This document shows positions 882-63,693 of a DNA stretch of 64,000 nucleotides, piece by piece. Made by a program: the position numbers and the translations under genes. Every line of letters begins with the position of its first letter. Position 1 is the first letter of the stretch. Under the pieces are notes generated by a model that saw only the letters and a list, made by a program, of their open reading frames with translations, was not told the origin of the DNA and ran no database searches. This DNA is from Opisthorchis felineus. Its lineage: Eukaryota > Platyhelminthes > Trematoda > Opisthorchiida > Opisthorchiidae. Location: contig SJOL01006431.1 in NCBI GenBank assembly GCA_004794785.1, forward strand, positions 895,625-959,624. The letters are read 5' to 3'.

Positions 882-899
882 TCCCCATTTTGAACAACC
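882..899 (-). CDS. Micro-exon, 18 nt (most 3' found)
   Basis: The donor is GTAAGA and the acceptor follows GCTTCCTCCAG. In the frame left by the 1083 exon it reads G-LFKMG with no stop and leaves one base. Its length is a multiple of 3, so the chain returns to symmetric exons after the alternating block. The donor is weaker than most in the chain. Confidence 0.5.
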
Positions 900-3800
900 C
901 TGGAGGAAGCACATTTGGTCCAGCAGCCGATTGCGTTCCAAGGCAGGAACACTTATCAGCGCGGCCTCGATTTAGAAGGATTCAAACACACATACAGTAG
1001 ATATTTGGTTAAAAGGTACGCCTGATTCTTCCTATTCTCGAAAGAAAGCGGACTTGAAAAAAAACACATTTGACTGACTTACCTTTATTGGGTTGCCTGT
1101 GACGAATCGCGAACGGAACATATATTGAAAAATTGTTCTCACTCTGACCCACCCGCAAACCACAAACTTTGGTGAGATTTCGGTGAACGTCTTCGACAGA
1201 ATAGCAATTATCGTTCTTTGAGTAGGAAAGAAACATTATCCTGAGGTCAGATCTAGCTTTATCCGCTTTTGATAATAGCAACAGTTTGCTTTCACCGCTG
1301 CACAGTAGATCCATGTTTACCATTCAAAGTTAATACTGTTTCTACCTCCCAAGTAGGTACCGAGACTGCCGAGACTGGCCGAAAGTCGGAGATGTGCTCT
1401 CCTAGGGACTGAGAATACGTGTATCTGTAGGGAACCATGCGTGCTGGTGGATAGAGCATTCCTGTGATATTCAGCTCCCATGAAAACTGGTTTTAGAAAT
1501 TTTGGAGAAAGTATCACCTCATACTGTTTTAACAGCACCAATCTGTATCCTTCAGTAGCTCACAATTTTTTACCTTTGAAGTTCGCGCCATTATCTATAT
1601 CGATTGTTTGGAAATGGTCTGAAAATTACTTTTTGTTGCGAATAAACTGGTTTGAAGTTTTAGTGACAGTTCTGGAATAACCATCTCTGCCGCAAACGAA
1701 AAGTTAGGCGAGTGAACAATAGGACTGAACGCAAACTCTCGGTATTCCCCACTTTTCTGCCTCCACGGCGTTAATATTGTCGTCACGGTTAGTGTAATCC
1801 AAAAACCAGTCCATTCTTCTTTTGCGATAGCATTTCCTCTCCTGCTCACTTGATCAGAGGTGTCTCATGCGACATTAACTAGACAACAACGGGCTCTCTA
1901 CAGGCCTGGAGAATTATGTTGCATTCAAGGCTTTGGTAAAGCCACAATTTTTGAGGAAACGGGAAAAGGAGAAAAAAAGACGTCCCCGAGCCTTTTGTAG
2001 CTTGTGTATTGGACCTGTTTACTCAGAGCTTCTACTTGTGAGTACTTTATTACGTCTATACATGTATCGCGATACCTCGAATATTGCGCCAACTGAAATA
2101 TGAGGCGGCCTGCTGCAGCACACTCAGTTGCTTAAAGACATCATAAACGAGAGATTCAGCTGGGTTCCAGGTGAGTCTCCCGTCAAAACCAAATCGATAT
2201 TCAAATGAGTCAGTGTATGAAACGCAGTGTTCACTACCTTGAACACCTTGTTGCTTTTTGCAAGGAGGTGCTGTTTCATCTTTGTTCATGATCTTCAGCA
2301 GTACACACCTCACTAAATTCAGAGAGTATCGAACTCGCAAACTTCCGGCTAGTGGTTGATTAGCTGTGTGATCGGCTTTCAACTAGACAAGACATAGCGC
2401 CACTCGTTCTTTAATAACGGAAACCACATCACGTGGTCACCTATTGACTGGCACCTGAGTTTTGTTGACAGGACACCACATTTCTGAACCAGTGATCGTT
2501 GGCCCGATTATTCGTCAGATTGCATACGTAACCCACAATCTTCGCCCGGTCAAAAGAATGAACTACTGCTTTCAGAATCAATGAGGTACCCTTTGTTGCG
2601 TCACCTTAGGAAGTTATATTGGCACGTTGTCGTAGCCACGGTTTGGTCAAGGATGTTTACGTATGTCTCATTCTGGTCAGCTTGCATTCCAACTGTTAGT
2701 CCTTTTTCGAGGGGCCTCATGCTCTTAGGAGCCAAGAAGAACGGTCAGCAGAAAGGACGATGTTCGTTACCGGGGTGGTTAACTTGCTTTCGTTTGACTT
2801 CTATCAGGCTCTTTCGTTTTTTAATTTAAATTTCCTTTGCAAAGCTGAATGGTGCAACAAAAAGCGGCATTCAACAAAAGTTCCGCTTTTGGGGGGCTCA
2901 GGATAATGACAATATCGACGACATTTCTGGTTGGTTCGCCAAACCAAAAAATAAAGCATTTGTTTTATGTTCTGAATTTCAAAAGAAACGGATAAACGCT
3001 TTGAGGAAAGCTCAATCACCCAACTAATTTCACGCTGAAAATTACTCATCTACACTAGAGCACACCAATGAAATTTCTGACAGCTACTCACGTTGGAGGA
3101 AGAAGGGGAACGAGTTCTATTAAAAAAACCATGAAGTGCACTTTAAAGCTACTCTTAATGCAAAGAAGACAGCGTAGCGTTATAAAAATTGTGGACCGCT
3201 TCGTATGGTAATCACTATAATCACTGAGCATTGGTTTATTTTACAGAAACCTAAACAAAAATGTTGAATTCTAGGAACGGGCATCAGTCAGTTCCATTCA
3301 TTTCAATTTATAAGCTGTAAACCGTGTACCATAGGTACATTGGTTCCAGCTGCTACAGTTTCGATCACCGGAAAACGGGAGTGTGAGACATAAAACCAAG
3401 CCTTGGAGGCGAAGGCATGTTCAATTTGTTCGGAAATTGGATAGCTACGCATTGAAGGCGTTTACTTTGATGCACGAGCATCACTGACTGCGCGATTGGG
3501 CCATTTCTGCTAATGTCAATAAACATTGGTGGTTTGAGTCCCGGGGTCCCCATCCAGGGAGGCGGCAGTTGCCGACCCGACTAAGTTTGCTGGTTAGTGT
3601 GTTCGAACTTCGTTGCCAGGTTATACACTGTCCACCTCTCGGTCGCTTCCACTCAGCACAGGGCTGGGCGAGGAGAGCTCTGTGAGGCAGACGGTCTTCT
3701 GGCATGCGGAGTACATGTCTTAACCAGCGCAGCCTATGAAACGTGAGTAATTCATCTATCGCACGATAGTTCCTTCTTCCTAAGACCATCTAGCATACCT

Positions 3801-6800
3801 CAGCATTACTAATCCGATGTTCCCACCAGACCTGACCAATGCTTTGGAGACATCAGTTTGTTTTCCTTGTTATAAATCGGTAGTATTTTCATCACTAAGG
3901 AATAGTGCACACAATCAGTAGTGGAAAACAGCAACTATGGTCCGACTTCAGATGGAGGTGCTTCTAAGAACTGTCGGTTATGCCGTTCGCGTCAGTCCAG
4001 AAGCACCTACGATCTGCTTGTGAAGGAAACTAACAAAAGTCTTCGAAGTGCATAAATAGGTGGCAAAAGGGGAATGTTTAAAAAATCCGCGGTTGTGTTC
4101 CCAAAACATTGTGTTGTGGTTGACCAATCAGCAGTCGGATTTCTCACTAAGTGAATTATCCCTGCAGCAGTCATGATGTTAATTTTACCCTGAAGGAGCT
4201 GCCACATCACCTATCCAGGTTGGTAACACCATCAGCTAATGATGTGGAACTGCTTTGCAGTTTACAATTGTGTAATGGTCAATGAATATCCAATAGCTTT
4301 CAAGAAGACGCGTGAGAATGTTCAGTTTTAAAAAATCTATGTGCGTAAGTGACGTTTCCTTTTCTGTCCAGTAGCTTGTAACTGCTTATATGGTGTTTGC
4401 AAATAAATGCCTCCGCAAAGAAGGTCTTCCCTCCCTTCACCATTAGACGAACACGTTGCAGCGGACACCAGCAGTTCGATCGACACACACCACTGATGGC
4501 ACTAGGGTCGTGTGTATACATTAGGGAACGCCAGGGTTCCATTTGGTGAAAGTTGCTCTCTATCGACGCGACATATACAACGACGGTTGCGAAAACACCT
4601 TCCTCTGCTCCCATCGTTTCTGTTCATCAATTAACTACTGCTCAAGAGACTGGCTCTTTTGGGGGCTACAGACTTGAACGAATTTCCGATGTTTTTAAGC
4701 AAGTGTTGATTTTTGACGTGCTGAGTGATATGTAGTCCCGTAAGGTGCACATCCGCTGTACTACGTGTCAACCGAAATTCATATAATGACGACTGACTTA
4801 CCTTCTTTGTCTTCCCTGTAGAGATCAGGAAATAAATTTTCCATTGGGCATCCTCCATATTTTTTACAAGATTGCTGACCCATATGCACTACCTTATTTC
4901 TGCGTGCTTTGTGTAATCATGCTGTCGCTTGAAAAAGAGCGGCAGAAATATTTTGTACAGTTTTTATTTGTGGTTAAAATGTGGACCATTTCCAGGGCGT
5001 AACCATCACCATCGGTCTACCAAGGAGCTACGAATGTGAAAGACATGATATCTAAACCTCCAAGACCAACCGTTTACTATCTACAGCCTAGAATGGTCAA
5101 CACTACCCACAAGATAATCGAATAAGTGAAGTGACACTGGAGTGCCTCCAGGTACTTTTGGTAAGATGTCTCGATAAAGTGCTCATTTTGACGTGACACG
5201 GATAGTAAGGTACCCTGACAGTAATCCTGGTTGACTCGTTACGATAGACACCTTCCAAAAAGTCTGTCGGAACATGAAGCCAACGATATACGTGGACATT
5301 GCATGTGTAGCGTTGTCCATTATCCCTGCAACTGAACTCAGCTTTTGCTCCCGACCACCTAGATATCCGAAAATCCCATAAAAATTCGAGAAAATCTACA
5401 CAGGTTCTTTAAGGCGCTACCTGTTTAAACAACGTATCATGGAGATTGTGAAAACAATAGATATTCTCCACAATTTATCCCTCAATATTCCGCAGCAAGA
5501 CAACCTTGATAATCACGTTAGTATTGTTTTGACTGGCTTCCCTGAGACAAGAACCTGGCATGTATATTCGGTTTGGAATAAATTGTGAACAGGCATGAAT
5601 TATACAAAGGATTATGTAGAATACGATAGAAACTTACGATGATAAGGTTGCCTCTACTCGTTCTGAGAAAAATGAGAATTAGGATAATAAAGGAAACTAC
5701 TCACAAGGTTGCTGAAAACTCTTCGACAGCCCACGATCGGTTTCGCCCTTCTTGGGGCTCATCCGGTATGCGCAGTCCCCGAGTTTCCATCAACCTTGTG
5801 TTCTAATTGAACCCAAATTGGACTGATTTCGACAAATACACTCATTTGCAAATCAACTTGGTTTTCACAAGAAACTCAACTGAACAAAGACCGGAGATTA
5901 AAAGGTACTAACATTATGATGCTTAGACGTTTTGATGATTCTTAACATTTGTATCGTCGACCTCTATAGATCGTCGATTTTTTTCGGCCTGAAGACAGAA
6001 CAATCTTGGTTGCGCAAAGTGTGCAACATGTGCGCGAACAACTCTAGTGGGTATGCGATTCTTCATTATCCATGCCCTAAGAGACTAACGCAATCGGATT
6101 AGAGGAGTATGAAAATGCGGCCTACATCGTTCTGTGAGTAGCAATGGTGATTCGACAGCTGAACTATTTTAGCCTATTTTTCCGAGTTGGAGATAAATGT
6201 TGTAATTGCTGTGGTCGATGCACCATTAGAGGGGACCTATCACCGTCCAGTAACACTTACATTTTGAATATCTAACATTTGTCTTCCAACTTCCTCAACG
6301 ATTGCCTTCTCGTTTGCAAGTTAAATTGGTGTTAACGCGACGCTCGGCTAGAATTCAACGGAGTCTAGCGCCTCCCAAATGTGGCGCACCCTTTGCCGGC
6401 CAAGTGGCCGGGGTTCTCGGCGTAAAAAAGGAACCATTCATTTGCTGTTGAAATGTTTGTATCTTACTTTACGGTCCCAGTGAATACAGCTGCATGCGCA
6501 TATCTAACGACTACCGACCATATACCAGATAGGAAGTCAGCTGTCTTTCGGCGATTCACACACTTCCTACTTGCATTATGACCGAGGAACACCCAAAAAA
6601 TTTTGCACCCACGGTGTTGCCATAAGTAGCCGCGCCAACAATGCACTCAGTGCCTGGGACCCAATATCCTCAAGGCTTGCGATGGCTCGTTTCAAAGTGA
6701 CCCTCTTGCACATGACTGGGGCCCCACTAACAAAAACATTCCCATATTTAGCCGATACAAACCGTTGCACAGGTAATTAATTTCAACGTTAGATTTGACA

Positions 6801-45800: not shown

Positions 45801-48800
45801 AGTAACGGGGCTAAGCTTTTTCAAGCCATCGTATCACTTTATATTGCCTGTGTATAGACATCAAACTACGCCGGATTATTATTAAAAAGCGTACAATTTT
45901 CCTGGCGTCCTTGGAGAAAGACGGTGTGCTATGTCAAAAGCATCTCTGAAAGCTTAGTCTTGTTAGAGATCAACACCAATTTCACTTTTGTTCACGCAGC
46001 GCTTGTAGCCACAAATTGTGCTGGTTTCGATTCGCACGGAGTTGTAGAAATGCTTTAAAATTATTCCGTAAACTACCAAGAATATTGTAGGCACACAATG
46101 AACGAGGTACATGACTTCACAACGGCCTTTATAGTAGATTTCGATACACTGTATTGGCTTCCTGACTTGTAGAACAAATCAAGGAACTAGCGAAATACAC
46201 TTATTTGCAAACAAATTTGGTTTTGCGAGAGACTCCCCGGGAACCCAGCTGAATCTCTCGTTTATGGCGTTTTTAAGCAACTGAATGTATTGCACCAGGC
46301 CACCTCATGTTTCAGTTGGTACGATATTCGCGATATCGCGATACATGTGTAGACGTAATGCATTACTCATAAGGTTGCTGAAAGAAGAATTTTCAGCAAC
46401 CTTATAAGTAGTGTATTAAGTCATGGAACTGATCACTCCGTATTCTCCTCCCCTCCTCCTCCAGGAAAGCGGTGTTGAACCTGATGAGATTTTGCACAGT
46501 CTCCCGTATCTGCTAAGTAGACTTAGATCCTCTCATAGCTCGTCATAGACTCCACATAGAACCACAGTGACTGATCAACGTAGTTTTTCGTATCCCAATG
46601 ATCGGTCCGTCCGATTTACTCTTCCAGAGGCAACCTCTTTCATGGATATCCTATTAGTTAGCCCCCAGTCTCGACAATCACCAGCACGAATTTAAGCATA
46701 ATGCTGGTCGTAAATTAACAGACCAAAACTTACAGGCTTTCCCTTTTGTACCTGATTTAGTGATAAGAAAAACGAAGAAGGTTTGCGCAAAAATGTCGCT
46801 TATGGTAAGAACATTTGTTTAAAGCAAACGTTATTGTGCCCTGAATTCACCTTACTTGTTCAAGAATCGGTTGGTTTGTAATTATCACAATCTAATTCGA
46901 AAGACAAGATATGAAAGCTGAGATGCACCAGACCTTTTGTCCTCACTGAGTCTCACTCTGCTCTTCGCTCATAAGGTGTTGAGTTCACTTGACCTGTAGT
47001 GCGAACCTCTGAGTACTGCGCGCCCTTTTTCCACTGGAACACCCAGCTCTATAAGGTTACTTTATGAGCGCGTGGTTCTGACATCAGACATTAGCTCAAT
47101 AGCCAGCTGAATGGACCCGCAGTTTAAGTCACAAAAACTCCAAAGAAGGGCTTGGCGTTACTGAGATTCTTCCGATTTTCACAGCCTAATCATTATCCAG
47201 CTTCCCATGGTAATTGATCAGTAGTTTAATAAGCAATATGAAAAATTATTCTGTACACGTTTATAATCAGGTCCAAAAAAGACGAATTCTTTCTTCCGCG
47301 CGAGCACCAGTAACCCGTGGAACTGAAATGTATGAATGACTTGGAAGTATCTAAACACCGCTTTACGACGGTCTTCTATTTCCACAAGTTGGATCGCACA
47401 ACTTAACGTCGATAATTGCAATGTGTGGACGCCATCAGATCTCATTTCGTAATGTCAGGCCGTCAGACATGTCTCTGTGCATTAGTCTGACCTTTATTAA
47501 GGTCGAAAAACACAGTTACCTGGCACAAACGATTCAATTCCTATAGGGGCTTAGCGAGCACAAGATGGCACACTCATACTCCACCACTCGTAGTCTGCCA
47601 GCTCATGGACCGTCTAATGGCTAGCCAACCATCAAAAAATAATTAACTTATATTATAACCAACTTCTTTCTCGGCACTGGTGATAGATGTCATCCTACTA
47701 GTTCCTAAAACGGATAGGACCAATGAGCAGTGCCTCCTCAGCCTGTTGAAATGGGTTCCTACTGCTTTGCGGAGGAGCAACCTCAACTTATACACGCTAC
47801 TCGCAATTCATGAGTAGTGTGCTCAGAGGTGAAAGCACAAGGTACGAGCCAACTCCAGAACACGTAGTACAAGCTGTGTTAGAGAGTAAGGTGACAGAAC
47901 TACTAATCAGGCACCCAGTGCTACTCGCTAATATTTCCAGCAACAATGAATTCATCTACTTTGTAGTGTGCAATAAGTTTTGTCTCAAACACAGAGGACA
48001 ATGAGAATCTCTTGCGGATACCAACTAAACGCCACCGAGCCACTCCGGAACTTTGAGCAAGAGCCTCAACTTAACTCACAAATGAAACAATCTTTACTCT
48101 GGAAAAATTAGTTGTGCTTGCCCACACATCTGGCTGCAAACCAGATTTGCATTTGCACGTTCAATAAACCATACGCACTTGAGAGTATGGTCGTTTCAAA
48201 TTGCGCCGGTTTATATATTCAACCAACAAAAAATTTCACTCACGCGTGCGTTTGACCCAAACTGAAATTTGAACAAGCAAAAACAGATTGACAAGGAGAG
48301 TGAATTGTCCGGTTCCGAACTGCAAAAATGGTGATGTTGAAAGGGCACAAAAATAGCGTCATGAAAGTAAAATAAACCATCTTCACTGCGCTGATTTCTC
48401 GGCTGTTGACGTAAACCAACCTTAAGGAAGGAATCTATTTTTCTTTTGAAAAGCTGTGGCAGTAAATCACTTTGGTAGGATAACTAATTCGGGTTAGTCA
48501 TCATAAAATGATCTGAGTGGGTGTGGTTTACAGATTGGCAGCTGACTGGCTACTCGTGAGTAGTCAGAACATTTTATCTATTTGCTCAATTAGACTTAAA
48601 AAGGTCCTGATGCTTATTAGATCATCGATTTCAAATTCGAATAAACATCAGAAGAAATGTAGCAGCTTCCCGAAAAACTCAACTATAACTTCTCAGTCAA
48701 TATCCAGGAAAATATTCGCCCATGGATTCGTGGCTAGAAGATATTCGAAGAGGATAAATGGCTATTCAAACTGACTAATTAGACAAATCAGAAGTTGTTG

Positions 48801-51800
48801 TTTCAAAATCTGGTCACATCAGTTTTACACTGCGCTCGACAGTTGGCTATAGGCGGCGCTAAAATGGACAGAGAGACGTCTCTTAGCAACAGTTTCGAAT
48901 CTTCCAATTAGGTCTTCACAACCCCCCCCCCCCAAGAATTCAGCGTGTGGAAGTCAGTGAGTAAATTAGCCAAAAATCAATTTCTGTATAACATGCTTAT
49001 TTTTGCTGAATTGACATGCCACTCATAAGTGTTCGCAGTGTGTTTTCCGACTTGTCGTACTGTTGCGCGTCCCAATCATAGCCAGTTTTCTAAGCATGGA
49101 AACTTTTGAAGTCAAAACACAGCGTAGTGGAATAAGGTGTTATAATCCGACGTTTCGGTTGCCGTGGACAATCCTTTCCAAGGATTTCGGTTGAATACGA
49201 GTCAAACGCCGCTTCAGTGGGGTCCACTACCAAGTTCCTGAGATCACTTGGCAGTCAGATACGTCCAGCGTGTTTGAATGTGTTGGCTCTACGTGCGCGT
49301 TCTCGTGATTCTGTGTTCTTCGACTAGGATGTGCCTTTCTTTTGTTGTTGTATTGACTATAATGTGACAGTGTGGAGATTTCTGCTTGGCATCTTGAGTC
49401 CAGTGCTCCGCCCCTTTGGTGTGGACACACCAGAATGATTGCGCTAGGACAGGAGGATGATTGTTCAAACGAGAGTCATGTGAGTGTGCAACCTGGTTAC
49501 TATGTCTAACAAGGTCTAAGCCAGATAGGTGGGATGAGGGCGCCATCACTGCGGTTAACGCAGTTCGGTTGTGTGTTGATCTCCAGTGCTTCAGCGCATG
49601 CCCGTTCCACGTGTTACTTGAATTCTGATTAGAGTATACGTCGAAATTGATTTGATGGCTTGACTCAAGGGTATGGAGTACAGTGGCTGAGTCGCGTTCA
49701 AGTTTGTTTAACCCGATTGGATTTTGTGGAGGAAAACGTGCATGTAGTTTGTGCACATGGAGTCACCTGGCTGTCAGGTCTATGTATTTGGCCGGACATT
49801 CTGCACGGGGAATTTGGTAGACTCAATTTGTGCGGTGTTTCGGTTCGACAAGGTCCTATCCTTACCAGGTGCCGTTGTTAATTCGGAAGACTGTTTTAAT
49901 GTCATAACCCCAAAGTATCTTTTGAATGGCGTCTGAAATGTTATTTCTATAGGGTGTTTCCACGGTGACTACCGGAATTTCGTCTCTGTACCTCACCGTT
50001 CCGGTTAGCTTTCTCTCCCTATATGTTCGGCAATATCCAACACTATCCGAACCGAATTTGGTCCACAACTCCGAAGTTTTCTAGGCAATTAGAGCGCAGT
50101 ACTGTGACAGCGATCTGAAGCTCATGAGCGACTATAATGCGCGCACTGCGCAACCCTTCAGATTTTGACCAGTGAAACCGATACATAAAACCACTGCTTT
50201 GAAATACAGTAGTCCAAACTCCGCACACAGCATTCGCACAGTACCTCTTTCAGTAGGTCAATGGCGCGCAGTTCAATCACATTGATTTTCGGTTCCGCAA
50301 CTGAATACACTGTCTAAGTCGGTTTGCTTAAATCAAATCACATCAAAATGGGTACAGTGGTTACATAACGACCTCCAACAAGATCTGTTGAAAGAACCTC
50401 TTGTTCTCAGCTTGACACTCAATGTTTCGCTGATGAGCAAACTCCAGAAAGCAGCCTCCACTACTGCGTCTACCCATTTTGTATCGACTGCATCCAAACT
50501 TTTCGCTTCAAACAACTCCCCGCATTTCGACATATTTAGTAAAATCTATAAAAGTCACATGATCAGAAATCTCGGGCTTGTCACTGAAGTGGAAAACCAC
50601 AATTTCTCTCATAAAAATGTCCAACGTGGAACATACATTAATGTATACAAAAAGTCAACTAAAAAACACAGCATTTCAAAGGCTTCATAAAGATTGATAA
50701 GGTATAAACCGGCAGAATCGTGTTCTGAAAACTGACCTTCACAAGGATATTCTGAAAAAGGAGAGTGTAGGTAGGATGGAAAAGTTATGGTGATTTTGTA
50801 GACTCAATGTCAGTTTTGTAGGTGACCTTCCGTCTGTTCCAGGTATTTTGCGAGTCAAAATTAAACAGAGTTTCGTGAGACATTTTTGTCATCAAACATT
50901 TGTTCGCTCGATTGAGGAACGGTCTACTTTTCTTGCTTTCTTTTACTCCGTATAACAGGTTGTTATGCTGCACATTGGCTACTTCCTGCAGACTTTATTC
51001 AAAATAAATCAAACTATGATGATGAATTGATCGACTTTCTAATAAAATCTACTACTTAGTAACAAAACCGAATCGTCAGGGCAGCAGAATAAACTAGCAA
51101 ATGTTAAGGTGGTTGGAGTATCTTTTACGTGTGCCCCAGCACCATCTATCCAAGGAAGCATCCCAAGCCATTTGGCGCATTCTTCGCGGGGGACATGTCA
51201 TGCCATGGCAAGGTGAAATGAAAGCCGCTACAGTCACACCAAGTACTGTAGGATCTCCGTTTCTTCCTGTCTATGAGCCTACGTCATCCTGACTATACGT
51301 GGAAGCAAATTTTACAAGGCATGACGCCCACTGGTGCACGTGCTATGACTTCGTAGCCGAACTGCCCAGTTACATTTCGCCTGTCAATGTGAGTTGGGAT
51401 ACCGGCGACATGGCTCAGTGGTTAGAGCACGAATTTATTGACCGGAAGATCCGTGGTCCGAACCCGACCTCTGCCTTTGGACTTCCCCTATCTAGGCTTG
51501 GGCCACCTGGCAGTATCCCAGCCCTCGTGCTTCCTTCTGGTGGCATGGCAGTTAGTCACCGAAAGAGCGCTACAGCTGAACAATTTTTCTGGGATACCGT
51601 CGGGTGGCGCTCTCAAAAGAAGCTGGGTCAATCCCGCTGATGGCGCCCTACTTCGGCATGATATTTATGGTTATCCAAAGTTGCAGGCAACTTATTCCTG
51701 GCCGTTTTCCTTAAGAACACCAGGCTTCTTGGCAAGAAGTCCCTACCCTTATCTTTTCCTTCCACTCTTTTCTAATGCTTTCTTCCCTCACGGTTGTATG

Positions 51801-52023
51801 GCAGTTAAGCGTCGGGGGAATTGCTGGCCGTCAACGATGATGACGATGAGGATATAATCGCAACCTACATGGGTCAGATAGGACTACATTCAAGTAAACC
51901 CTAGGGACCCTTGATAAATCCCCTAGAGATCAACAGATCAAGCATAAATGAAACAGGTCATTTGATCAAAAACAACGAAAAATCTCAACGCTTGAAAAAA
52001 TGACTTACCGGTGCAGCGGTCAA
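882..52023 (-). CDS. Giant micro-exon gene, coiled-coil-like product of unknown function (exon chain, partial)
   Basis: About 38 segments of 10-33 nt on the minus strand form one continuous open frame of roughly 745 nt. They are separated by introns of about 0.1-3.7 kb, so the interval is about 98.5% intron. From 52.0 to 29.7 kb all accepted exons are multiples of 3 and join in one phase (two bases complete a codon, one base is left over). From 28.9 to 1.1 kb lengths alternate 3n+1 and 3n+2. The predicted protein is rich in K, E, R and L, with helical pieces such as [16 protein letters not shown] and RRLEELK. I recognise no family. Trematode micro-exon genes have similar short symmetric exons, but they are usually secreted, and no signal peptide is visible here. 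An ordinary cytoskeletal or ciliary coiled-coil gene with extreme exon fragmentation is the alternative. The 5' end, the 3' end and one internal exon are unresolved. Confidence 0.72.
1083..1096 (-). CDS. Micro-exon, 14 nt (3n+2 class)
   Basis: The donor is AAAG|GTAAGTC and the acceptor ends GATTCGTCACAG. With two bases carried in from exon 3092 it reads T-QPNK and leaves G. It has the same length class as the exons at 4802, 8753, 23671, 24988 and 28250. Confidence 0.62.
3092..3116 (-). CDS. Micro-exon, 25 nt (3n+1 class)
   Basis: The donor is GTGAGTA and the acceptor follows a T-run ending TTTTTTTAATAG. It reads E-LVPLLPP in frame and leaves two bases. The proline-rich content contrasts with the charged helical exons upstream. 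Confidence 0.68.
3481..3845 (-). mobile_element. 3' end of an RTE-like non-LTR retrotransposon (degenerate)
   Basis: The minus-strand translation contains [11 protein letters not shown], then [20 protein letters not shown], then WKRPRGGQ and a C-terminal RLPGWGPRD segment. This is the usual C-terminal tail of flatworm and other animal endonuclease/reverse-transcriptase polyproteins of the RTE type. A stop interrupts the frame just before the RRNYR segment. No reverse transcriptase core is present, so this is a 5'-truncated dead copy. It lies in the intron between exons 4802 and 3092. Confidence 0.8.
4230..4470 (+). repeat. Dispersed repeat D, copy 1
   Basis: About 230 bp is similar, in direct orientation, to 23935-24165 and partly to 27590-27690. 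Shared blocks include a TGGTCAATGAATATCC-like block, a GAAGACRCGTGAGRATGTTCAGTTTT-like block split by small gaps, and a CTGTCCARTAG block. No coding content was recognised. Confidence 0.6.
4802..4815 (-). CDS. Micro-exon, 14 nt (3n+2 class)
   Basis: The donor is GAAG|GTAAGTC. The acceptor tract TTTATTTCCTGATCTCTACAG is strong. It reads S-EDKE in frame and leaves G. It lies between two 25-nt exons, as the alternation predicts. Confidence 0.78.
5638..5662 (-). CDS. Micro-exon, 25 nt (3n+1 class)
   Basis: The donor is GTAAGTT and the acceptor tract CTCATTTTTCTCAG is strong. It reads K-RVEATLS and leaves TC. Frame 0 would stop at TAG; only the frame imposed by the chain or the one other non-stop frame is usable. 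Confidence 0.8.
5693..5872 (-). mobile_element. Hammerhead retrozyme-like repeat, truncated copy
   Basis: The ribozyme sense is on the minus strand. It starts at the recurrent ACTACTCAYAAGG end and runs through the ribozyme region to the ACTCATTTGCAAATC block. Catalytic CTGATGA is changed to CGGATGA, and the GGUC cleavage triplet context is GAUC, so it should be inactive. Confidence 0.8.
6265..8214. other. Intron of the micro-exon gene
   Basis: Nothing supportable was seen: no recognisable protein similarity in the short reading frames and no repeat I could match elsewhere in the window. A GTAAGTG site near 6261 on the minus strand has no acceptor that keeps the frame. Confidence 0.4.
8215..8540 (-). 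mobile_element. Hammerhead retrozyme-like repeat, near full-length permuted copy
   Basis: The + strand runs from the TTGAACCC block through the TGTTTCAGTTGGTACGAT block and the ACTACTCATAAGG junction into the ribozyme region. It therefore spans the junction between successive monomers, as expected from a circular or multimeric template. The ribozyme core is damaged: CTAATGA replaces CTGATGA, and GGAC replaces GGUC. Confidence 0.8.
8753..8766 (-). CDS. Micro-exon, 14 nt (3n+2 class)
   Basis: The donor is AAAA|GTAAGC and the acceptor ends GTTCAGATACAG. It reads R-EWLK and leaves A. It resembles exon 21191 (R-ENALK, also ending CTCAAAA before GTAAGC), which suggests exon duplication. Confidence 0.68.
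8988..9012 (-). CDS. Micro-exon, 25 nt (3n+1 class), found by phase prediction
   Basis: The phase gap between exons 9724 and 8753 required a 3n+1 exon. This one has donor GAG|GTATGTC and acceptor tract CCTTTTTGCATTCCAG. It reads I-RRLQSLR and leaves AG, which completes R at the start of exon 8753. It is strongly helical and basic. Confidence 0.8.
9096..9185 (-). mobile_element. Hammerhead retrozyme-like repeat, short copy
   Basis: It begins at the ACTACTCACAAGGTTGCTG end and stops within the ribozyme region. A deletion removes the cleavage site and CTGATGA reads CTGATAT, so it is inactive. Confidence 0.75.
9724..9740 (-). CDS. Micro-exon, 17 nt (3n+2 class)
   Basis: The donor is GTAAGTA and the acceptor tract CTCTCCTTCTTTTTCCGTAG is among the best in the window. 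It reads K-KYYKR in frame and leaves A. Confidence 0.8.
10020..12200. other. Intron of the micro-exon gene
   Basis: I see no repeat, RNA or protein similarity that I can support. Short reading frames occur on both strands without recognisable content. Confidence 0.4.
12210..12219 (-). CDS. Micro-exon, 10 nt (3n+1 class)
   Basis: This is the shortest exon accepted. The donor is TTAA|GTAAGTA and the acceptor tract CATTTATCTGCTTCAG is strong. It reads I-RL and leaves AA. Its length fits the alternation between two 17-nt exons. Confidence 0.7.
12393..12426 (+). repeat. (CAAA)n simple repeat
   Basis: About seven near-perfect tetranucleotide units in an intron. Confidence 0.95.
13598..13682. mobile_element. 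Retrozyme-like repeat, inverted dimer (short)
   Basis: An antisense arm (a TTTTGATAGGAGTCTC block, then an AAGCTGAATTCTC block) runs directly into a sense arm (CAGCAACCTTATGAGTG). It lies inside the 172-residue reading frame at 13396-13914, which is therefore unlikely to be a gene. Confidence 0.65.
14125..14141 (-). CDS. Micro-exon, 17 nt (3n+2 class)
   Basis: The donor is GTAAGCA and the acceptor tract AATTTTTTTCACTTAAG is strong. It reads R-AYLEQ and leaves A, continuing the helical run from exon 15836. Confidence 0.78.
14455..14625 (+). mobile_element. tRNA-derived SINE family 2, copy 1
   Basis: It matches 19770-19965 directly and 31470-31765 in reverse. Shared landmarks are CTGATCAG, AAGTGTTCAAAC, a B-box-like GGGTTCAAGGCT, a GAGATGCRCACTG block and a CAGCTTTTCA block. 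The tRNA-like head is Leu- or Ser-like but degenerate. Confidence 0.65.
15836..15860 (-). CDS. Micro-exon, 25 nt (3n+1 class)
   Basis: The donor is AGAG|GTGAGTG and the acceptor ends TGTGTACGCTCAG. It reads x-RRLEELK and leaves AG. This frame needs one base carried in. Exon 18732 supplies that directly; exon 17288 does not unless a further 3n+2 exon lies between. Confidence 0.75.
16800..17275. mobile_element. Retrozyme-like repeat, long inverted dimer
   Basis: The antisense arm 16800-17035 runs from the ACACTCATTTGC block through the monomer junction into the ribozyme region. The sense arm 17041-17275 then runs back through the ribozyme to the CAGTGTATTA end. The sense arm keeps CTGATGA (17195-17201) but has lost GAAA context and the cleavage triplet (GGAA for GGUC). 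Confidence 0.85.
17288..17312 (-). CDS. Micro-exon, 25 nt (3n+1 class), possibly alternative
   Basis: The donor is GTAAGTC and the acceptor ends CCGTTTACGTAG. It reads R-AAELVQQ and leaves AC. Skipping it keeps the frame from 18732 to 15836. Including it requires an unfound 3n+2 exon. It sits 12 bp from the long inverted retrozyme. Confidence 0.68.
18732..18748 (-). CDS. Micro-exon, 17 nt (3n+2 class)
   Basis: The donor is GTGAGTG and the acceptor ends TACCTATTTTAG. It reads M-EELER and leaves A. The alternative frame stops at TAG, which is what exposed the missing exon 20299. Confidence 0.78.
19200..19255 (+). repeat. AT-rich ACATAT-type simple repeat
   Basis: A degenerate run of ACATAT and ATAT units in an intron. 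Confidence 0.85.
19600..19690 (-). mobile_element. Degenerate tRNA-like SINE head
   Basis: The minus strand has a B-box-like GGTTCAAATCC at 19621-19631. The rest does not fold as a convincing tRNA, so I call it a SINE remnant rather than a tRNA gene. Confidence 0.3.
19770..19965 (+). mobile_element. tRNA-derived SINE family 2, copy 2
   Basis: It carries a GTGGCCGAACGGG block, GGCTCGAAACCC, a GAGATGCACATTG block and CAGCTTTTCAGCGTAGATTGG, in the same order as 14455-14625. Confidence 0.65.
20299..20317 (-). CDS. Micro-exon, 19 nt (3n+1 class), found by phase prediction
   Basis: A 3n+1 exon was required between 21191 and 18732. This one has donor GTGAGTG and acceptor tract TGCATTTCTTGTCCAG. 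It reads R-RLAKK and leaves AT, so exon 18732 begins by completing M. Frame 0 would stop at TAG. Confidence 0.8.
21191..21207 (-). CDS. Micro-exon, 17 nt (3n+2 class)
   Basis: The donor is AAAA|GTAAGCG and the acceptor tract ATTATCACTCTTCCAG is strong. It reads R-ENALK and leaves A. It resembles exon 8753. Confidence 0.8.
21955..22080 (-). mobile_element. tRNA-derived SINE family 1, copy
   Basis: Reverse orientation relative to 51405. It retains the body (CATGTCACCCGAAGGAAG on the + strand) and a B-box region with GGGTTCGAAAC. The 5' head is eroded. Confidence 0.65.
22528..22552 (-). CDS. Micro-exon, 25 nt (3n+1 class)
   Basis: The acceptor tract ATTCTTTCCCTTTCAG is excellent. The donor is AAG|GTGAGTG. 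It reads E-IQVDNFV and leaves AG. A second possible donor (GTAAGG) lies five bases earlier, giving 20 nt, but that would break the alternation. Confidence 0.82.
23671..23684 (-). CDS. Micro-exon, 14 nt (3n+2 class)
   Basis: The donor is GAG|GTATGTT, like exon 8988. The acceptor tract GTTTATTGCTATTTAAG is strong. It reads K-IPNR and leaves G. Confidence 0.76.
23935..24165 (+). repeat. Dispersed repeat D, copy 2
   Basis: A direct copy of 4230-4470 with small indels. The boundaries are approximate. Confidence 0.6.
24735..24750 (-). CDS. Micro-exon, 16 nt, with possible longer forms to 24795 or 24810
   Basis: The donor is AAAA|GTAAGTT and the nearest acceptor tract AAGTTTCTTTAG is strong. The core reads E-RPQE and leaves AA. 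Upstream lies a 15-bp minisatellite that stays open in the same frame ([10 protein letters not shown] and similar). It offers further AG acceptors giving 61- or 76-nt exons, both also 3n+1. Confidence 0.76.
24753..24827 (-). repeat. 15-bp minisatellite upstream of an exon, about 5 units
   Basis: Units on the + strand begin GAAGAAG or close variants with period 15. On the gene strand each unit supplies CTTCTTCA, so the array builds a pyrimidine tract and repeated candidate acceptors. It is open in the gene frame as Ser/Gln-rich sequence. Confidence 0.8.
24988..25001 (-). CDS. Micro-exon, 14 nt (3n+2 class)
   Basis: The donor is GAAG|GTGAGTT and the acceptor tract TCATCGGTTTTAAAG is good. It reads E-QTAE and leaves G. 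Confidence 0.78.
25656..25671 (-). CDS. Micro-exon, 16 nt (3n+1 class)
   Basis: The donor is AGGA|GTAAGTC and the acceptor ends TTATCTCGTCCAG. It reads E-EEDE and leaves GA. With 28250 it makes a run of acidic residues. Exon and downstream intron resemble 24630-24750, so this is a duplicated exon pair. Confidence 0.76.
25871..26072. mobile_element. Retrozyme-like repeat, inverted dimer
   Basis: The antisense arm runs to about 25955 and ends TCTCGTTTATGATG. The sense arm from 25966 contains CTGATGA at 25996-26002 and ends at GAGTAGTATGTTA. GAAA is mutated to AAAA and the cleavage triplet to GGCC, so it is inactive. Confidence 0.82.
27060..27105 (+). mobile_element. Retrozyme-like repeat, small remnant
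   Basis: It resembles the sense strand just 5' of and into the ribozyme (GATGGGAATTCGGGAACTG, then CGATGAGC). Too short to be sure of. Confidence 0.4.
27377..27388 (-). CDS. Candidate micro-exon, 12 nt
   Basis: The donor is GCAA|GTGAGCT and the acceptor tract GATGACTTTTCAAG is good. It is a multiple of 3 and reads E-PFA in the prevailing phase, so it could be included or skipped without affecting frame. Only the splice signals support it. Confidence 0.38.
27590..27690 (+). repeat. Dispersed repeat D, partial copy 3
   Basis: A weak match to the 3' part of 23935-24165 (AGTTTGTAACC, then GACACGCAACTCCCCGCTGG). Confidence 0.35.
28250..28263 (-). CDS. Micro-exon, 14 nt (3n+2 class)
   Basis: The donor is AGG|GTAAGTG and the acceptor tract TCGTTCCGTTTTCAAG is good. 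It reads K-VKLE and leaves G. Confidence 0.78.
28854..28878 (-). CDS. Micro-exon, 25 nt; first of the alternating block
   Basis: The donor is CAAA|GTGAGTG and the acceptor tract CTTTCTTCCGTTGCAG is excellent. It reads K-GYLSFKS and leaves AA. Upstream of this exon all accepted exons are symmetric; downstream the 3n+1/3n+2 alternation begins. Confidence 0.82.
29672..29686 (-). CDS. Micro-exon, 15 nt (symmetric)
   Basis: The donor is AGGA|GTAAGTC and the acceptor tract CTATCGATTTTATTCAG is strong. It reads S-DKGR and leaves A. Confidence 0.76.
31113..31133 (-). CDS. Micro-exon, 21 nt (symmetric; 9-nt form possible)
   Basis: The donor is GAGA|GTGAGTA. The upstream acceptor TTTGCATCTATTACACAG gives 21 nt reading I-FYKVKE. 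A second acceptor inside (TTTTTTACAAAG) gives 9 nt. Both are symmetric and open. Confidence 0.7.
31470..31765 (-). mobile_element. tRNA-derived SINE family 2, reverse copy
   Basis: Its reverse complement has CTGATCAG, TGGCCGAACGGTTAAGTG, TTCAAACGACTAG and a GAGATGCGCACTGTTGATG block. It matches 14455-14625 and is the best preserved head of this family. Confidence 0.7.
31893..32120. mobile_element. 228-bp foldback element (MITE-like) or intronic long hairpin
   Basis: A 17-bp perfect inverted repeat CTGTCAGTGAAGTCAGT (31932-31948 with 32056-32072) lies outside an 11-bp perfect inverted repeat CCGCACAGCTG (31989-31999 with 32022-32032). Weaker pairing extends about 40 bp outward on both sides. 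There is no coding capacity. A clear target-site duplication was not found, so transposon identity is inferred. Confidence 0.7.
32345..32374 (-). CDS. Micro-exon, 30 nt (symmetric; 24-nt form possible)
   Basis: The donor is TCGA|GTAAGTG and the acceptor TTCTTTGCTGATTCAG is good. It reads [10 protein letters not shown] and leaves A. An inner AG gives a 24-nt form in the same frame. Confidence 0.7.
32765..32900 (-). mobile_element. tRNA-derived SINE family 1, reverse copy
   Basis: The reverse complement matches the 51405 copy (a CCTGGCAGTATCCCAGCCCT-like block and CTTCCTTCGG). It stands head to head with the next entry. Confidence 0.7.
32945..33110 (+). mobile_element. tRNA-derived SINE family 1, forward copy
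   Basis: The B box GGTTCGAACTC is at 32997-33007, with an A-box-like GATGGCCAAGTGG upstream. The body carries CCTGGCAGTAGCC and CTTCCTTCGGGTGACATGGC. Confidence 0.75.
33120..35050. other. Intron of the micro-exon gene
   Basis: AT-rich sequence with several + strand reading frames of 60-105 residues that show no recognisable domain. I see no repeat that I can match. Confidence 0.4.
35062..35082 (-). CDS. Micro-exon, 21 nt (symmetric)
   Basis: The donor is CACT|GTGAGTG and the acceptor ends ATGCCTGTTTGAAG. It reads E-FGPDIH and leaves T. It is open in the prevailing phase. Confidence 0.6.
35747..35767 (-). CDS. Micro-exon, 21 nt (symmetric)
   Basis: The donor is CTAG|GTAAGTA and the acceptor tract GAATTTTTTGTCACATAG is good. 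It reads R-REGKKL and leaves G. Frame 0 would stop. Confidence 0.76.
   Translation of the reverse strand, partial: DERGKS
36198..36545. mobile_element. Retrozyme-like repeat, inverted dimer
   Basis: The antisense arm from TTTAGACGTAATACACC passes through the ribozyme to TTTATGTTGTTTTTAAG (36433). The sense arm starts near 36436 (ACCAACTGGAACATGAGG) and ends GTGAGTCTCTCGTC. The antisense arm's ribozyme has TTGATAA for CTGATGA, but GAAAC and CGGUC are kept. Confidence 0.85.
37362..37394 (-). CDS. Micro-exon, 33 nt (symmetric, longest accepted)
   Basis: The donor is CTGA|GTAAGCA and the acceptor tract GTATCTATCTTTTCTACAG is excellent. It reads [11 protein letters not shown] and leaves A, an amphipathic helix-like segment and the most protein-like piece of the 5' half. 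Confidence 0.82.
   Translation of the reverse strand, partial: KATWNISRKS
37520..37531 (-). CDS. Micro-exon, 12 nt (24-nt form to 37543 possible)
   Basis: The donor is TTGG|GTAAGTT and the acceptor ends GCATTGGGTTTAG. It reads V-PFL in phase. Using an earlier AG gives 24 nt reading LGLVPFL. Both are symmetric; acceptor strength is moderate. Confidence 0.55.
38657..38677 (-). CDS. Micro-exon, 21 nt (symmetric)
   Basis: The donor is CTGG|GTAAGTT and the acceptor ends ATAATTGTCTACACAG. It reads R-TVGVGL and leaves G. Confidence 0.78.
39767..41235 (-). mobile_element. Penelope-like retroelement remnant 1 (RT plus GIY-YIG)
   Basis: Minus-strand translations in order are [24 protein letters not shown], then [20 protein letters not shown] (about 40786-40825) and RRVDDICIL (about 40700-40730), which match the Penelope reverse transcriptase with its YVDD-type motif changed to RVDD. 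After a frameshift come [16 protein letters not shown] and [20 protein letters not shown]. The GIY-YIG endonuclease region follows at about 40040-40120 as [16 protein letters not shown], where YIG is YVD. Stops and frameshifts make it dead. Confidence 0.88.
41688..41708 (-). CDS. Micro-exon, 21 nt (symmetric)
   Basis: The donor is CAAA|GTAAGTC and the acceptor ends TCCGTTGTTTTAG. It reads V-KIIASQ and leaves A. A weaker inner acceptor would give 9 nt, also symmetric. Confidence 0.72.
43090..43113 (-). CDS. Micro-exon, 24 nt (symmetric, frame-setting)
   Basis: The donor is TTG|GTAAGTG and the acceptor tract CTTGTCAATTATTACCTAG is strong. It reads [12 protein letters not shown] sequence. Frame 0 stops immediately at TGA, so this exon excludes that phase. 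Confidence 0.8.
44007..44030 (-). CDS. Micro-exon, 24 nt (symmetric, frame-setting)
   Basis: The donor is GAAG|GTAAGTT and the acceptor ends GATCTGACTTTTAG. It reads x-LSCNASE and leaves G. Frame 1 stops at TAA, so together with 43090 the phase is unique. Confidence 0.8.
44147..44167 (-). CDS. Micro-exon, 21 nt (symmetric)
   Basis: The donor is AAAG|GTAAGTC and the acceptor tract TTTCCCATTCTTGCAG is excellent. It reads x-NLPILK and leaves G. Frame 0 would stop at TGA. Confidence 0.8.
44734..44754 (-). CDS. Candidate micro-exon, 21 nt (symmetric)
   Basis: The donor AGTA|GTAAGTG is good. The acceptor CGCTAAAACCAAG is weak. It reads x-TCLENS in phase. Confidence 0.45.
45128..45245. mobile_element. 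Retrozyme-like repeat, inverted dimer (decayed)
   Basis: The antisense arm has TTTCGTTTATGATG and CACGTTTCAGCTGGTACGAT. It then turns to the sense end CAGCCTAATTAGTAGTATG. Confidence 0.65.
46190..46420. mobile_element. Retrozyme-like repeat with a tight terminal palindrome
   Basis: The antisense copy runs from GCGAAATACACTTATTTGC through CGATATCGCGATAC to the junction end. It then snaps back: 46356-46383 pairs with 46391-46418 across a 7-bp loop. Confidence 0.85.
47520..47540 (-). CDS. Micro-exon, 21 nt (symmetric)
   Basis: The donor is CCAG|GTAACTG and the acceptor ends TAAGCCCCTATAG. It reads x-IESFVP and leaves G. The donor is less canonical than most. Confidence 0.58.
48244..48261 (-). 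CDS. Micro-exon, 18 nt (symmetric)
   Basis: The donor is ACGC|GTGAGTG and the acceptor tract TTGCTTGTTCAAATTTCAG is excellent. It reads x-WVKRT and leaves C. Confidence 0.76.
48922..48933 (+). repeat. Poly-C run, 12 bp
   Basis: Homopolymer. A second run of 10 C lies at 19496-19505. Confidence 0.95.
49120..50000 (-). mobile_element. Penelope-like retroelement remnant 2 (linker, GIY-YIG, 3' terminus)
   Basis: The minus strand reads [20 protein letters not shown] (linker before the endonuclease). It then reads [19 protein letters not shown], the GIY-YIG core with YIG changed to YID. Next come [17 protein letters not shown] and [20 protein letters not shown], the conserved C-terminal tail. Downstream, 49120-49215 holds the Penelope-type terminal GAAACGTCGGATT motif. 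A stop follows YIDLTAR. No reverse transcriptase was found upstream. This is a 5'-truncated dead copy. Confidence 0.85.
51095..51250 (+). mobile_element. RTE-like retrotransposon C-terminal remnant, plus strand
   Basis: The translation [20 protein letters not shown], then [20 protein letters not shown], parallels the 3481-3845 element. It ends 150 bp before a SINE family 1 copy. Confidence 0.65.
51405..51860 (+). mobile_element. tRNA-derived SINE family 1, longest copy
   Basis: The head has A box TGGCTCAGTGG (51411-51421) and B box GGTCCGAACCC (51455-51465). The body has CCACCTGGCAGTATCCCAGC and CTTCCTTCTGGTGGCATGGC. The tail ends GGGGAATTGCTGGCCGTC followed by GATGATGACGATGAGG. Reading frames of 113 and 139 residues here are SINE artefacts. 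Confidence 0.85.
52009..52023 (-). CDS. Micro-exon, 15 nt (symmetric; most 5' accepted)
   Basis: The donor is ACCG|GTAAGTC and the acceptor ends GAATGAATCCGTAG (moderate). It reads x-DRCT and leaves G in phase. Confidence 0.52.
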
Positions 52024-52343
52024 CTACGGATTCATTCACGTCCCCTGTTTGCAGGTAAGTGATTAGAAAAATATCATAAATTTGTTTGCGAACAACAAGG
52101 TTTGAAACAAACGATTTCACTTCGCTTCCATCGATTGACGAATACTTACAGAAACAGAATACGTGCTAACAGTGTGAACACGGTCGACAGATAAATATGC
52201 CATAACCGCTTTACCCTTTAAATCAGTTTCCCCTTTTAGCTAAAAAACGGCCTGCTGGTTTGTTCAGAGACATTGCTGCTTGCATGGACAAAGCTTGCAA
52301 CACAGCTGAAACAATGTCAGGACTGAAGCCAGACTTCAGAGAC

Positions 52344-52365: not shown

Positions 52366-52509
52366 CATGTTCATTTGTGGTGACGACTACCGCCTAGCCT
52401 ACATCAGCTGTCCGCGAAAGAACTTGCTTCGTATGCACTATTAGTTGCCGCGTGTTCCAGTCGTATGATACATCTGTGCCAAGCTCCATCCATGCATATG
52501 CAGCATATT

Positions 52510-52738
52510 CAGTTTAAGGTGACCACCATAAGCGAGAGTTTTAGCTGGATTTAGCTGTCTCCCATCAAAACCAAATTACTCTGAAATTGGGAGAGTTTGA
52601 CGAATTCCGTTCAAGTTGGGTTCAAGTAGAATATAAGGTTGACGAAGCCAGGGGGCTTTGCCTACCTGATGAGCTCCTAGAAGGGTGAAACCGGTCGTGG
52701 ACTGTCGAAGAGTATTCAGCGACCTAGTGAGTAGAATG
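52510..52738 (+). mobile_element. Hammerhead retrozyme-like repeat with intact core
   Basis: Sense copy running from TTTTAGCTGGATTTAGCTG through TTGGGTTCAAGTAGAA and the ribozyme to GAGTAGAATGTTGCG. It is the only copy that keeps all core nucleotides. Confidence 0.85.
52655..52715 (+). ncRNA. Type I hammerhead ribozyme
   Basis: CTGATGA is at 52666-52672 and GAAA at 52687-52690. The cleavage triplet GTC ends at 52696 within CGGTC. Stem I pairs 52660-52665 (GCCTAC) with 52697-52702 (GTGGAC), with one GU pair and one mismatch. Stem II pairs GCTC with GGGT over a six-base loop. Stem III is only ACCGGT, a palindrome with essentially no loop, so cleavage may need a dimeric or concatemeric form, as known for other very short stem III hammerheads. 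Confidence 0.8.
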
Positions 52739-52999
52739 TTGCGTACAAACCATCCAGTTCACCCTTATTTCCTTCCGGGATAGTCAGTGGGTCGAATAAA
52801 CAACACTACAGCAGCATATAGAATAGCCTGAGACGTGCCCAGAAGTTCTTAGTTTGTTGTGATTGAGTCGTCAACACACTGCCTACAGTAACGATTCCCA
52901 AACGGCTAACGGTCAGCTGTTTTATAAATTCTACAACAACAAAACTTTTAGGCGTCTCTGATCATTTAGCACTGTTCACCTCTGAATACTACCCATATT

Positions 53000-56607: not shown

Positions 56608-56850
56608 AACATACTACTCATAAGGTTTCTGAAAACAGTTGGACGGCTCACAAACCGCTTCGACCCTTTTTGGGCTCATCAGGTAGATCACGTCCAAGAG
56701 TTCTCATCAAATTCCTGTTCTACTTGAATATCAACTTATGTCCAGTTGGCCAATTACACCCATTTGTATATATGTTGATGCTGACGATAGATTCAGCTGA
56801 ATCTCTGTTTTATGATGTTAACCTGGGATTCAGCTGAGTCTCCTATTAGT
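56608..56850. mobile_element. Retrozyme-like repeat, inverted dimer
   Basis: The antisense arm from ATACTACTCATAAGG passes the ribozyme (CTGATGA kept; GAAA changed to GAAG) to TCTGTTTTATGATGTT. A short sense arm (CTGGGATTCAGCTGAGTCTC) follows. Confidence 0.8.
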
Positions 56851-57059
56851 GCAAACTTAATATGCAAAAATCATCCTAGTTCGTCAGTGATTTTTGGATT
56901 TTTTTTTGTCACCGACACTTGCAAAAGCAAGAAACAGCATCATATTTATCATTGGACACCCTTAAGAGTTCACTTTATCATCCATTTTGAAGTGAAAGAA
57001 CGCTTGAACTTGAACGAAAACAAAACTTACGCATTTTAACTTCTAAGCCTGAGTTTTCT

Positions 57060-63639: not shown

Positions 63640-63693
63640 AACCGGTCGTGGGCTGCCAAAGAGTTTTCAGCAACCTTATGAGTAGTGCGTTAT
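63640..63693 (+). mobile_element. Retrozyme-like repeat, 3'-end fragment
   Basis: ACCGGTCGTGGGCTG, then GTTTTCAGCAACCTTATGAG and TAGTGCGTTA, keep the cleavage site and the 3' end without the 5' half of the ribozyme. Confidence 0.75.

Follow-up and report, generated by a model that had tools for sequence, protein, structure and literature searches.

Micro-exon genes (MEGs), studied mostly in schistosomes and subsequently in tapeworms, have been described as a means by which flatworms produce variants of proteins secreted at the host interface. They are defined as genes of short, mostly symmetric exons that encode secreted or exposed proteins (PMC5825161; PMC4350168), with an exon size given as 6-36 bp (PMC5825161) or as up to 81 bp (PMC10526429). 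MEGs of Schistosoma mansoni are reported to have 10-20 micro-exons, with 'one or two' exons whose length is not a multiple of three (3n) in 'a few cases' (PMC10526429); in MEG-26 to -32, 26 of 33 micro-exons are symmetric and 7 of 33 are not (PMC4671649). According to the same report, head-enriched MEG proteins average ~10 kDa, and a long 5' exon encodes most or all of their signal peptide. Work on tapeworms, which counts 52 MEGs in Hymenolepis microstoma and 35 in Echinococcus multilocularis, asks for at least seven exons, with four or more symmetric micro-exons in a row, and states that MEG orthogroups cannot at present be determined with confidence (PMC7653826). No opisthorchiid MEG was found described in the accessible parts of the literature searched (PMC7653826, PMC3499410, PMC7263636 and PMC4413821; subscription papers and supplements lay outside the search). 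Here we analyze a window of 64,000 nucleotides (nt) from the liver fluke Opisthorchis felineus (GCA_004794785.1, contig SJOL01006431.1, positions 895,625 to 959,624), the minus strand of which almost certainly carries the interior of one protein-coding gene, CRM22_005027, with at least 39 exons.

An earlier interpretation of the window, made from the letters alone (the sequence-only reading), had proposed a minus-strand fluke gene built almost wholly from micro-exons between positions 882 and 52023. We joined 25 predicted exons by phase match, with lysine and glutamate richness as a secondary guide in the last curation, and chose this query before any relative was known. Searched with X as padding and restricted to its real part, the resulting peptide had one protein match at E<=1 among 837 candidates, namely 'hypothetical protein CRM22_005027 [Opisthorchis felineus]' (P0001, 377 residues, E = 8e-63). 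The deposit is known only as a hypothetical protein, and its name carries no micro-exon label. To this protein belong 24 of the 25 query exons, a score which, given how the query was curated, is not purely based on splice signals; the exception is the segment 899-882. Pairwise alignment places the query pieces in the order of the protein, except for the last seven query residues, which are absent from it. Exact spliced mapping then distributed positions 80-943 of the 1131-nt coding sequence over 39 successive exons of the minus strand (57069-1083), covering 864 nt at 100% identity with 38 of 38 joins gapless and no base missing. Such identity by itself assigns the DNA to O. felineus or to a nearly identical species. 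The same mapping was run on 14 controls, made up of the plus strand, the reversed protein and six shuffled versions each of the protein and of the window; each returned between one and five short segments, with at most 51 nt covered and not one gapless join.

The database match and the 39 gapless exons thus confirm the core of the sequence-only reading. The peptides it joined as tests, REGKKL among them, are adjacent in the deposited protein. Its limits do not hold: the exons found in the window lie between 57069 and 1083, further coding sequence at either end was not found there, the segment at its 882 end is missing from the protein, and its other limit, 52023, falls inside a 36-nt exon (52044-52009). 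It had counted thirty-odd segments of 10-33 nt; the exons are indeed short, and the real figures are 39 exons of 9-76 nt. Likewise, the length clusters it listed recur at 14 (five exons), 17 (four), 21 (six), 24 (two) and 25 nt (six), and the supposed cluster at 16 nt is a single exon. It did not see the missing coding ends, the existence of two frame regimes or the false exons that derive from repeats.

The micro-exon signal can also be read from the DNA without the deposited protein. Every AG acceptor and GT donor on both strands was scored with generic metazoan weight matrices, and segments of 6-40 nt between an AG and a GT were counted after filtering by their summed splice score. At >=10 bits the minus strand holds 11 such segments and the plus strand one; shuffling the minus strand 40 times with its dinucleotides preserved gave a mean of 0.98 and a maximum of 5. 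Among segments of 41-120 nt the minus strand shows no excess at >=10 bits (2 vs a shuffle mean of 2.3) and a mild one at low cut-offs (65 vs a shuffle maximum of 64 at 5 bits; 45 vs 39 at 6 bits). Segments of 8-36 nt were also joined by dynamic programming into a single chain, free of stops and consistent in phase. With a penalty of 5 the best chain scored 128.7 with 37 exons on the minus strand and 12.9 with 13 exons on the plus strand. Chains in 30 shuffles scored 30.7 on average (standard deviation 10.7, maximum 54.7) and had at most 20 exons; with penalties of 6 and 7 the minus strand scored 95.1 and 69.4, compared to shuffle maxima of 28.9 and 14.1. Counts and chains far above those of the shuffles, and on the minus strand only, mean that the micro-exon observation is strand-specific and beyond chance. 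Moreover, the shuffled-sequence control that had been named in advance as a possible refutation yielded no equally long chain. When checked against the deposited protein, 23 of 37, 19 of 28 and 16 of 21 exons of the mechanical chains were correct; lone splice-signal calls, made outside the context of strand and phase, are often wrong. With the 39 exons masked, the residual minus-strand segments at cut-offs 5-10 number 20, 11, 6, 5, 3 and 2. These counts are at the chance level given by the shuffle means (18.8, 12.4, 7.9, 4.2, 2.3 and 1.1); once the exons are masked, no excess is left.

The remainder of the coding sequence, positions 1-79 and 944-1131 (79 + 188 nt), was not found within the window. 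Away from the mapped exons, exact matches reach at most 14 nt for the first part (at 63508) and 12 nt for the last part (at 689), neither exon-like in its placement, and no peptide piece of more than five residues from the missing parts occurs on either strand. The gene therefore most likely extends past both ends of the window, unless its ends are cut very small. An 8-nt minus-strand piece at 63936-63929, lying between AG and GT just upstream of exon 1 in coding order, would fit coding positions 72-79; its donor, GTGTCA, does not resemble those of the 39 exons, which makes chance likely. In the O. felineus genome the mean gene length is reported as 25,615 bp with a mean of nine exons (PMC6530080).

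The 39 exons span 55,987 nt (57069-1083). They are 9-76 nt long (median 21), 37 of them being at most 36 nt and 38 shorter than 70 nt, and the 38 introns between them measure 116-4986 nt (median 1291). Exon coordinates rest on the exact match to the deposited coding sequence, and all exons, numbered here in coding order from the first one in the window, lie on the minus strand. Exons 1-18 all have lengths of 3n and phase-1 introns. Exon 1 (57031..57069, 39 nt, phase 1-1, VNPEENSGLEVKMR) holds coding positions 80-118 and is followed by exon 2 (52009..52044, 36 nt, phase 1-1), exon 3 (50737..50751, 15 nt, EYPCEV), exon 4 (48244..48261, 18 nt, VWVKRTR), exon 5 (46734..46751, 18 nt, RTKGKAY) and exon 6 (44147..44167, 21 nt, YNLPILKV). 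Exons 7 (44007..44030, VLSCNASEV) and 8 (43090..43113, VKFKIKKVV) have 24 nt each; then come exon 9 (41688..41708, 21 nt, VKIIASQN), exon 10 (41144..41161, 18 nt, NEPGENR), exon 11 (38657..38677, 21 nt, RTVGVGLE) and exon 12 (37362..37394, 33 nt). Exons 13 (35747..35767, RREGKKLE) and 14 (35062..35082, EFGPDIHY) measure 21 nt, and exons 15 (34464..34493) and 16 (32345..32374) measure 30 nt. Exon 17 (31113..31133, 21 nt, IFYKVKES) and exon 18 (29672..29686, 15 nt, SDKGRK) complete the run of 18 symmetric phase-1 exons. At one third for each exon such a run has a probability of 2.6e-9, for a run that was picked post hoc.

A different regime begins with exon 19. Among exons 19-39, 20 strictly alternate between lengths of 3n+1 (A exons, phase 1-2) and 3n+2 (B exons, phase 2-1), forming ten pairs of 27-90 nt, to which one symmetric 9-mer is added. 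Each A-B pair thus returns to phase 1. The first pairs are exon 19 (28854..28878, 25 nt, KGYLSFKSK) with exon 20 (28250..28263, 14 nt, KVKLEE), exon 21 (25656..25671, 16 nt, EEEDEE) with exon 22 (24988..25001, 14 nt, EQTAEE), and exon 23 (24735..24810, 76 nt), the sole exon longer than 39 nt, with exon 24 (23671..23684, 14 nt, KIPNRE). The predicted helix described below starts in exon 25 (22528..22552, 25 nt, EIQVDNFVR), whose B exon is exon 26 (21191..21207, 17 nt, RENALKR). It continues through exons 27 (20299..20317, 19 nt, RRLAKKM) and 28 (18732..18748, 17 nt, MEELERK), exons 29 (15836..15860, 25 nt, KRRLEELKR) and 30 (14125..14141, 17 nt, RAYLEQI), exons 31 (12210..12219, 10 nt, IRLK) and 32 (9724..9740, 17 nt, KKYYKRI), and exons 33 (8988..9012, 25 nt, IRRLQSLRR) and 34 (8753..8772, 20 nt, RYREWLKR). 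The 9-nt symmetric exon 35 (7952..7960, phase 1-1, RNLE) stands before the pair of exon 36 (5638..5662, 25 nt, ERVEATLSS), where the predicted helix stops, and exon 37 (4802..4815, 14 nt, SEDKEE). The last pair in the window is exon 38 (3092..3116, 25 nt, ELVPLLPPT) and exon 39 (1083..1096, 14 nt, TQPNKD), which ends the mapped part with coding positions 930-943 of 1131. Overall, 19 of the 39 exons are symmetric, and the 40 exon boundaries fall in phase 1 thirty times, in phase 2 ten times and never in phase 0. If ten 3n+1 and ten 3n+2 exons were ordered at random, strict alternation would arise with a probability of 1/C(20,10) = 5.4e-6; the alternation and the missing phase 0 are largely one fact, not two.

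All 39 exons are flanked by AG and GT. The intronic part of the donor is close to invariant, with G at +5 in 39 of 39, A at +4 in 37, T at +6 in 35 and A or G at +3 in 38 of them, and the last exon base (-1) is G in only 16 of 39. The word GTRAGT occurs 57 times on the minus strand, 32 of them at these exon ends, and 38 times on the plus strand. Two further minus-strand segments are absent from the deposited protein. One, at 29500-29432 between exons 18 and 19, is 69 nt long, has a splice score of 10.1, is symmetric and open in phase 1-1, and is a possible alternative exon. The other, at 55827-55806 between exons 1 and 2 (22 nt, 11.9 bits), has a length that breaks the frame there and is either chance or an alternative exon.

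One pair of exons has a traceable origin. Exon 21 together with the intron that follows it aligns to exon 23, at the 3' end of the latter, and to the next intron, with 62% over 231 nt (E 9e-11; alignment score 347), and the regions of the two 14-nt B exons, 22 and 24, align with a score of 231, compared to 87-169 in 20 shuffles. Similarity at both the A and the B regions indicates that the A-B pair was once duplicated in tandem, exons 21-22 being the first copy and exons 23-24 the second, and that this event is old; it is one case only. Two other similarities were not counted as exon duplications: that of the flanks at 44167 and 44030, as the flanks overlap, and that at 9012 and 5662, where a shared interspersed repeat lies beside both exons. 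Two pairs that score barely above the best shuffle (50751/14141, 165 vs 156; 44030/12219, 171 vs 154) were left uninterpreted.

A short interspersed repeat occurs in both orientations, with some inverted pairs, at 2035-2235, 5694-5889, 16775-17276 and 36181-36562, with further copies at 46165-46383, 52460-52804, 56598-56830 and 63611-63725. At 52676-52666 and 26006-25996 the repeat gives rise to false micro-exons (GAGCTCATCAG or GGGCTCATCAG, followed by gtagg), both of them convincing as splice-signal calls. Two open reading frames (ORFs) were also seen. A minus-strand ORF of 102 residues in the intron between exons 37 and 38 (3481-3789) appears by its motif to resemble the C-terminal end of a non-LTR (long terminal repeat) retrotransposon polyprotein. 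A plus-strand ORF of 115 residues (51293-51640) is likely repeat-borne rather than a gene; we take a 20-residue stretch in it to be one that recurs in many fluke predictions.

The protein starts with an uncharged hydrophobic stretch, residues 1-19 containing no K, R, D or E, which by eye looks like a signal peptide. Residues 20-175, mostly encoded by symmetric exons, include three cysteines and have a net charge of +13; residues 176-220 are acidic (net -8). Residues 221-296 consist of 34% K+R, lack proline and are predicted to form a single helix. In a single-sequence AlphaFold2 model (mean predicted local distance difference test score, pLDDT, 50; predicted template modelling score 0.30) this helix is the only confident part, with block-mean pLDDT values of 89-98 for residues 231-290 and 78-79 at both ends, and the tail beyond it is of low confidence. 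Its hydrophobic periodicity is not significant, the moments at 3.5, 3.6 and 3.67 residues being 28.7, 25.8 and 17.3; in shuffles the largest of the three averages 35.7. We therefore describe a single helix and do not claim a coiled coil.

Homology searches add no known family. The whole protein has neither a Pfam nor an NCBIfam family at E<=10. Pfam searches with partial peptides gave nothing credible: two peptides matched no family, another query had RecC_C as its best match (0.22), and one of two peptides matched CotE (E 0.048) and a calcium-channel domain (0.053). The PDB likewise held nothing credible (best E 0.89 and 0.036 for partial queries, 0.089 for the protein), and Rfam nothing at the gathering threshold. 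A ciliary coiled-coil family of the DUF4200/CCDC42 type, suspected at first, is supported by no search result. An NPC2/ML fold for residues 47-182, another lead, does not appear in a Pfam search of that region (best Lambda_CIII, 0.28) and is not claimed.

How does the gene compare to known MEGs? With 864 of 1131 coding nt in the 39 exons, most of its coding sequence lies in very short exons. Other traits of MEGs are a secreted or membrane-anchored product, alternative splicing through skipped exons, and a longer exon on each side of the chain, at its 5' and 3' ends; coding positions 1-79 and 944-1131, where such longer exons would be expected, were not found in the window. It has 39 exons, 18 of them consecutive and symmetric, where the tapeworm definition looks for seven and four (PMC7653826). 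One published rule on symmetric exons is narrowly missed, since 19 of 39 are symmetric in the window, the gene ends being outside this count, and for this reason we do not file the gene under the strict definition. As regards similarity to a named MEG family, a search with the deposited protein returned only that protein among 4596 candidates at E<=1; its demands on shared words and on length are such that remote or much shorter relatives could escape. Like the S. mansoni MEGs (families 1-16 and 26-32), the gene has a chain of very short exons with introns of the same order (~0.1-5 kb in S. mansoni; PMC10526429; PMC4671649) and symmetric exons, here in the 5' half; the S. mansoni products are secreted with a signal peptide, and here a putative one was judged by eye. 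It differs from them in having at least 39 micro-exons instead of '10 to 20' (PMC10526429), in that 20 of 39 exons are not 3n, compared to 'one or two' or to 7 of 33 in MEG-26 to -32, and in a length of 377 residues as against the ~10 kDa average of head-enriched MEG proteins (PMC4671649). Its long predicted helix is a further difference, and no sequence relative was found. With the tapeworm MEGs it shares a micro-exon architecture outside schistosomes and a stretch of four or more symmetric micro-exons, here 18; the proportion of symmetric exons in this window, 19 of 39, sets it apart from them (PMC7653826). CRM22_005027 therefore has MEG architecture and is best called a MEG variant, with two unusual traits, the number of at least 39 micro-exons and the two frame regimes.

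Taken together, we infer a micro-exon gene in the schistosome and tapeworm sense, coding for a secreted protein; this account, including the splicing scheme that follows, is very likely the best explanation of the locus, and secretion as such, predicted from the protein's start, is likely too. The exon chain is established to the extent that sequence evidence allows; its mode of working is a proposal. Since ordinary exon definition requires longer exons than these, the spliceosome would locate them mainly through the intronic half of the donor, a very strict GTRAGT, together with a T-rich acceptor. The symmetric exons 1-18 could be skipped singly in frame and might thereby diversify the N-terminal, secreted part of the protein. 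Further 3', in-frame skipping would be limited to whole pairs, or even runs, and to the 9-mer, which would shorten the basic helix pair by pair, and loss of a single A or B exon would shift the frame and mostly truncate the protein. When one asymmetric exon is dropped in silico, 17 of the 20 cases run into a stop within 2-42 codons; exons 36, 38 and 39, dropped singly, give no stop before the last exon in the window.

Whether such skipping is used is another matter. Frame arithmetic suggests that variants may be made by exon skipping, a proposal to which we give somewhat less than an even chance. Several points weigh against it and against parts of the wider account. Asymmetric exons, 20 of 39, are a hindrance to exon skipping. 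Phase-compatible skip junctions create a stop in 19 of 423 cases, about the 3 in 64 of random codons, which gives no sign of selection for free skipping. After masking there is no clear surplus of further minus-strand micro-exons beyond the 39. The putative signal peptide was recognized by eye, and the exon that encodes it was not located in the window. No other relative of the protein turned up among the 4596 candidates at E<=1, in a search limited to proteins that share five-residue words with the query and are 0.55-1.75 times as long, and a C-terminal piece of 105 residues, lacking the 30 residues of exons 23-24, had no match at E<=10 among 39 candidates; with no relative found in any other species, there is no sign of conserved structure. 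Finally, the mapped protein is itself a deposited gene model of the same species.

The strongest alternative, to which we give the same weight as to skipping itself, is that the secreted protein is spliced constitutively and that intron gain or tandem exon duplication broke up its gene, the micro-exons being a by-product that yields no variants. The asymmetric exons, the undepleted stops at skip junctions and the lack of surplus alternative micro-exons all fit this explanation, as does the fact that the only deposited protein found is a single sequence. It is countered by the 18 consecutive symmetric phase-1 exons, an arrangement tied to exon skipping in MEGs (PMC7653826; PMC4350168). A more elaborate proposal goes the other way: a 5' cassette of singly skippable phase-1 exons would diversify the secreted domain, and frame-locked A-B pairs in the 3' part would duplicate and be spliced as units, tuning the length of the basic helix by one pair per step, with a single-exon slip that truncates the tail acting as an off switch. 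As a whole we consider it rather unlikely.

It is very improbable that the deposited protein is itself a wrong prediction and the agreement circular. In favour of it, the record is that of a hypothetical protein for which we found no relative. Set against this, the one-strand excess of splice signals exists independently of any annotation, and 24 of 25 exons had been picked before the record was seen. Moreover, gene finders are said to exclude such short runs (PMC4671649), and the O. felineus annotation is stated to be built on mRNA-seq and PASA models (PMC6530080), on which CRM22_005027 would then also rest. A chance chain of splice-like motifs, such as any 50 kb might allow, could draw on the weakness of single calls (14 of the 37 exons in the longest mechanical chain are wrong, and two strong candidates lie in repeats) and is refuted, to the point of a negligible probability, by the far lower shuffle and plus-strand controls and by the exact, gapless 864-nt match that none of the 14 controls approached.

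For the micro-exon gene with a predicted secreted product, several consequences follow. A gene of this kind can be recovered from raw DNA through a strand-specific excess of splice signals combined with phase. This liver-fluke gene, whose 39 or more micro-exons are about double the 10-20 of S. mansoni, would extend MEGs to the opisthorchiids. It offers a natural test of spliceosome recognition, with exons of mostly 9-39 nt, introns of about 1 kb, a near-invariant intronic donor and a relaxed last exon base. Its strict A-B alternation and the one traceable pair duplication make the growth of micro-exon chains testable by comparison with O. viverrini and Clonorchis. If paired asymmetric micro-exons do turn out to be a unit of both evolution and splicing, they would be a new device within micro-exon genes.
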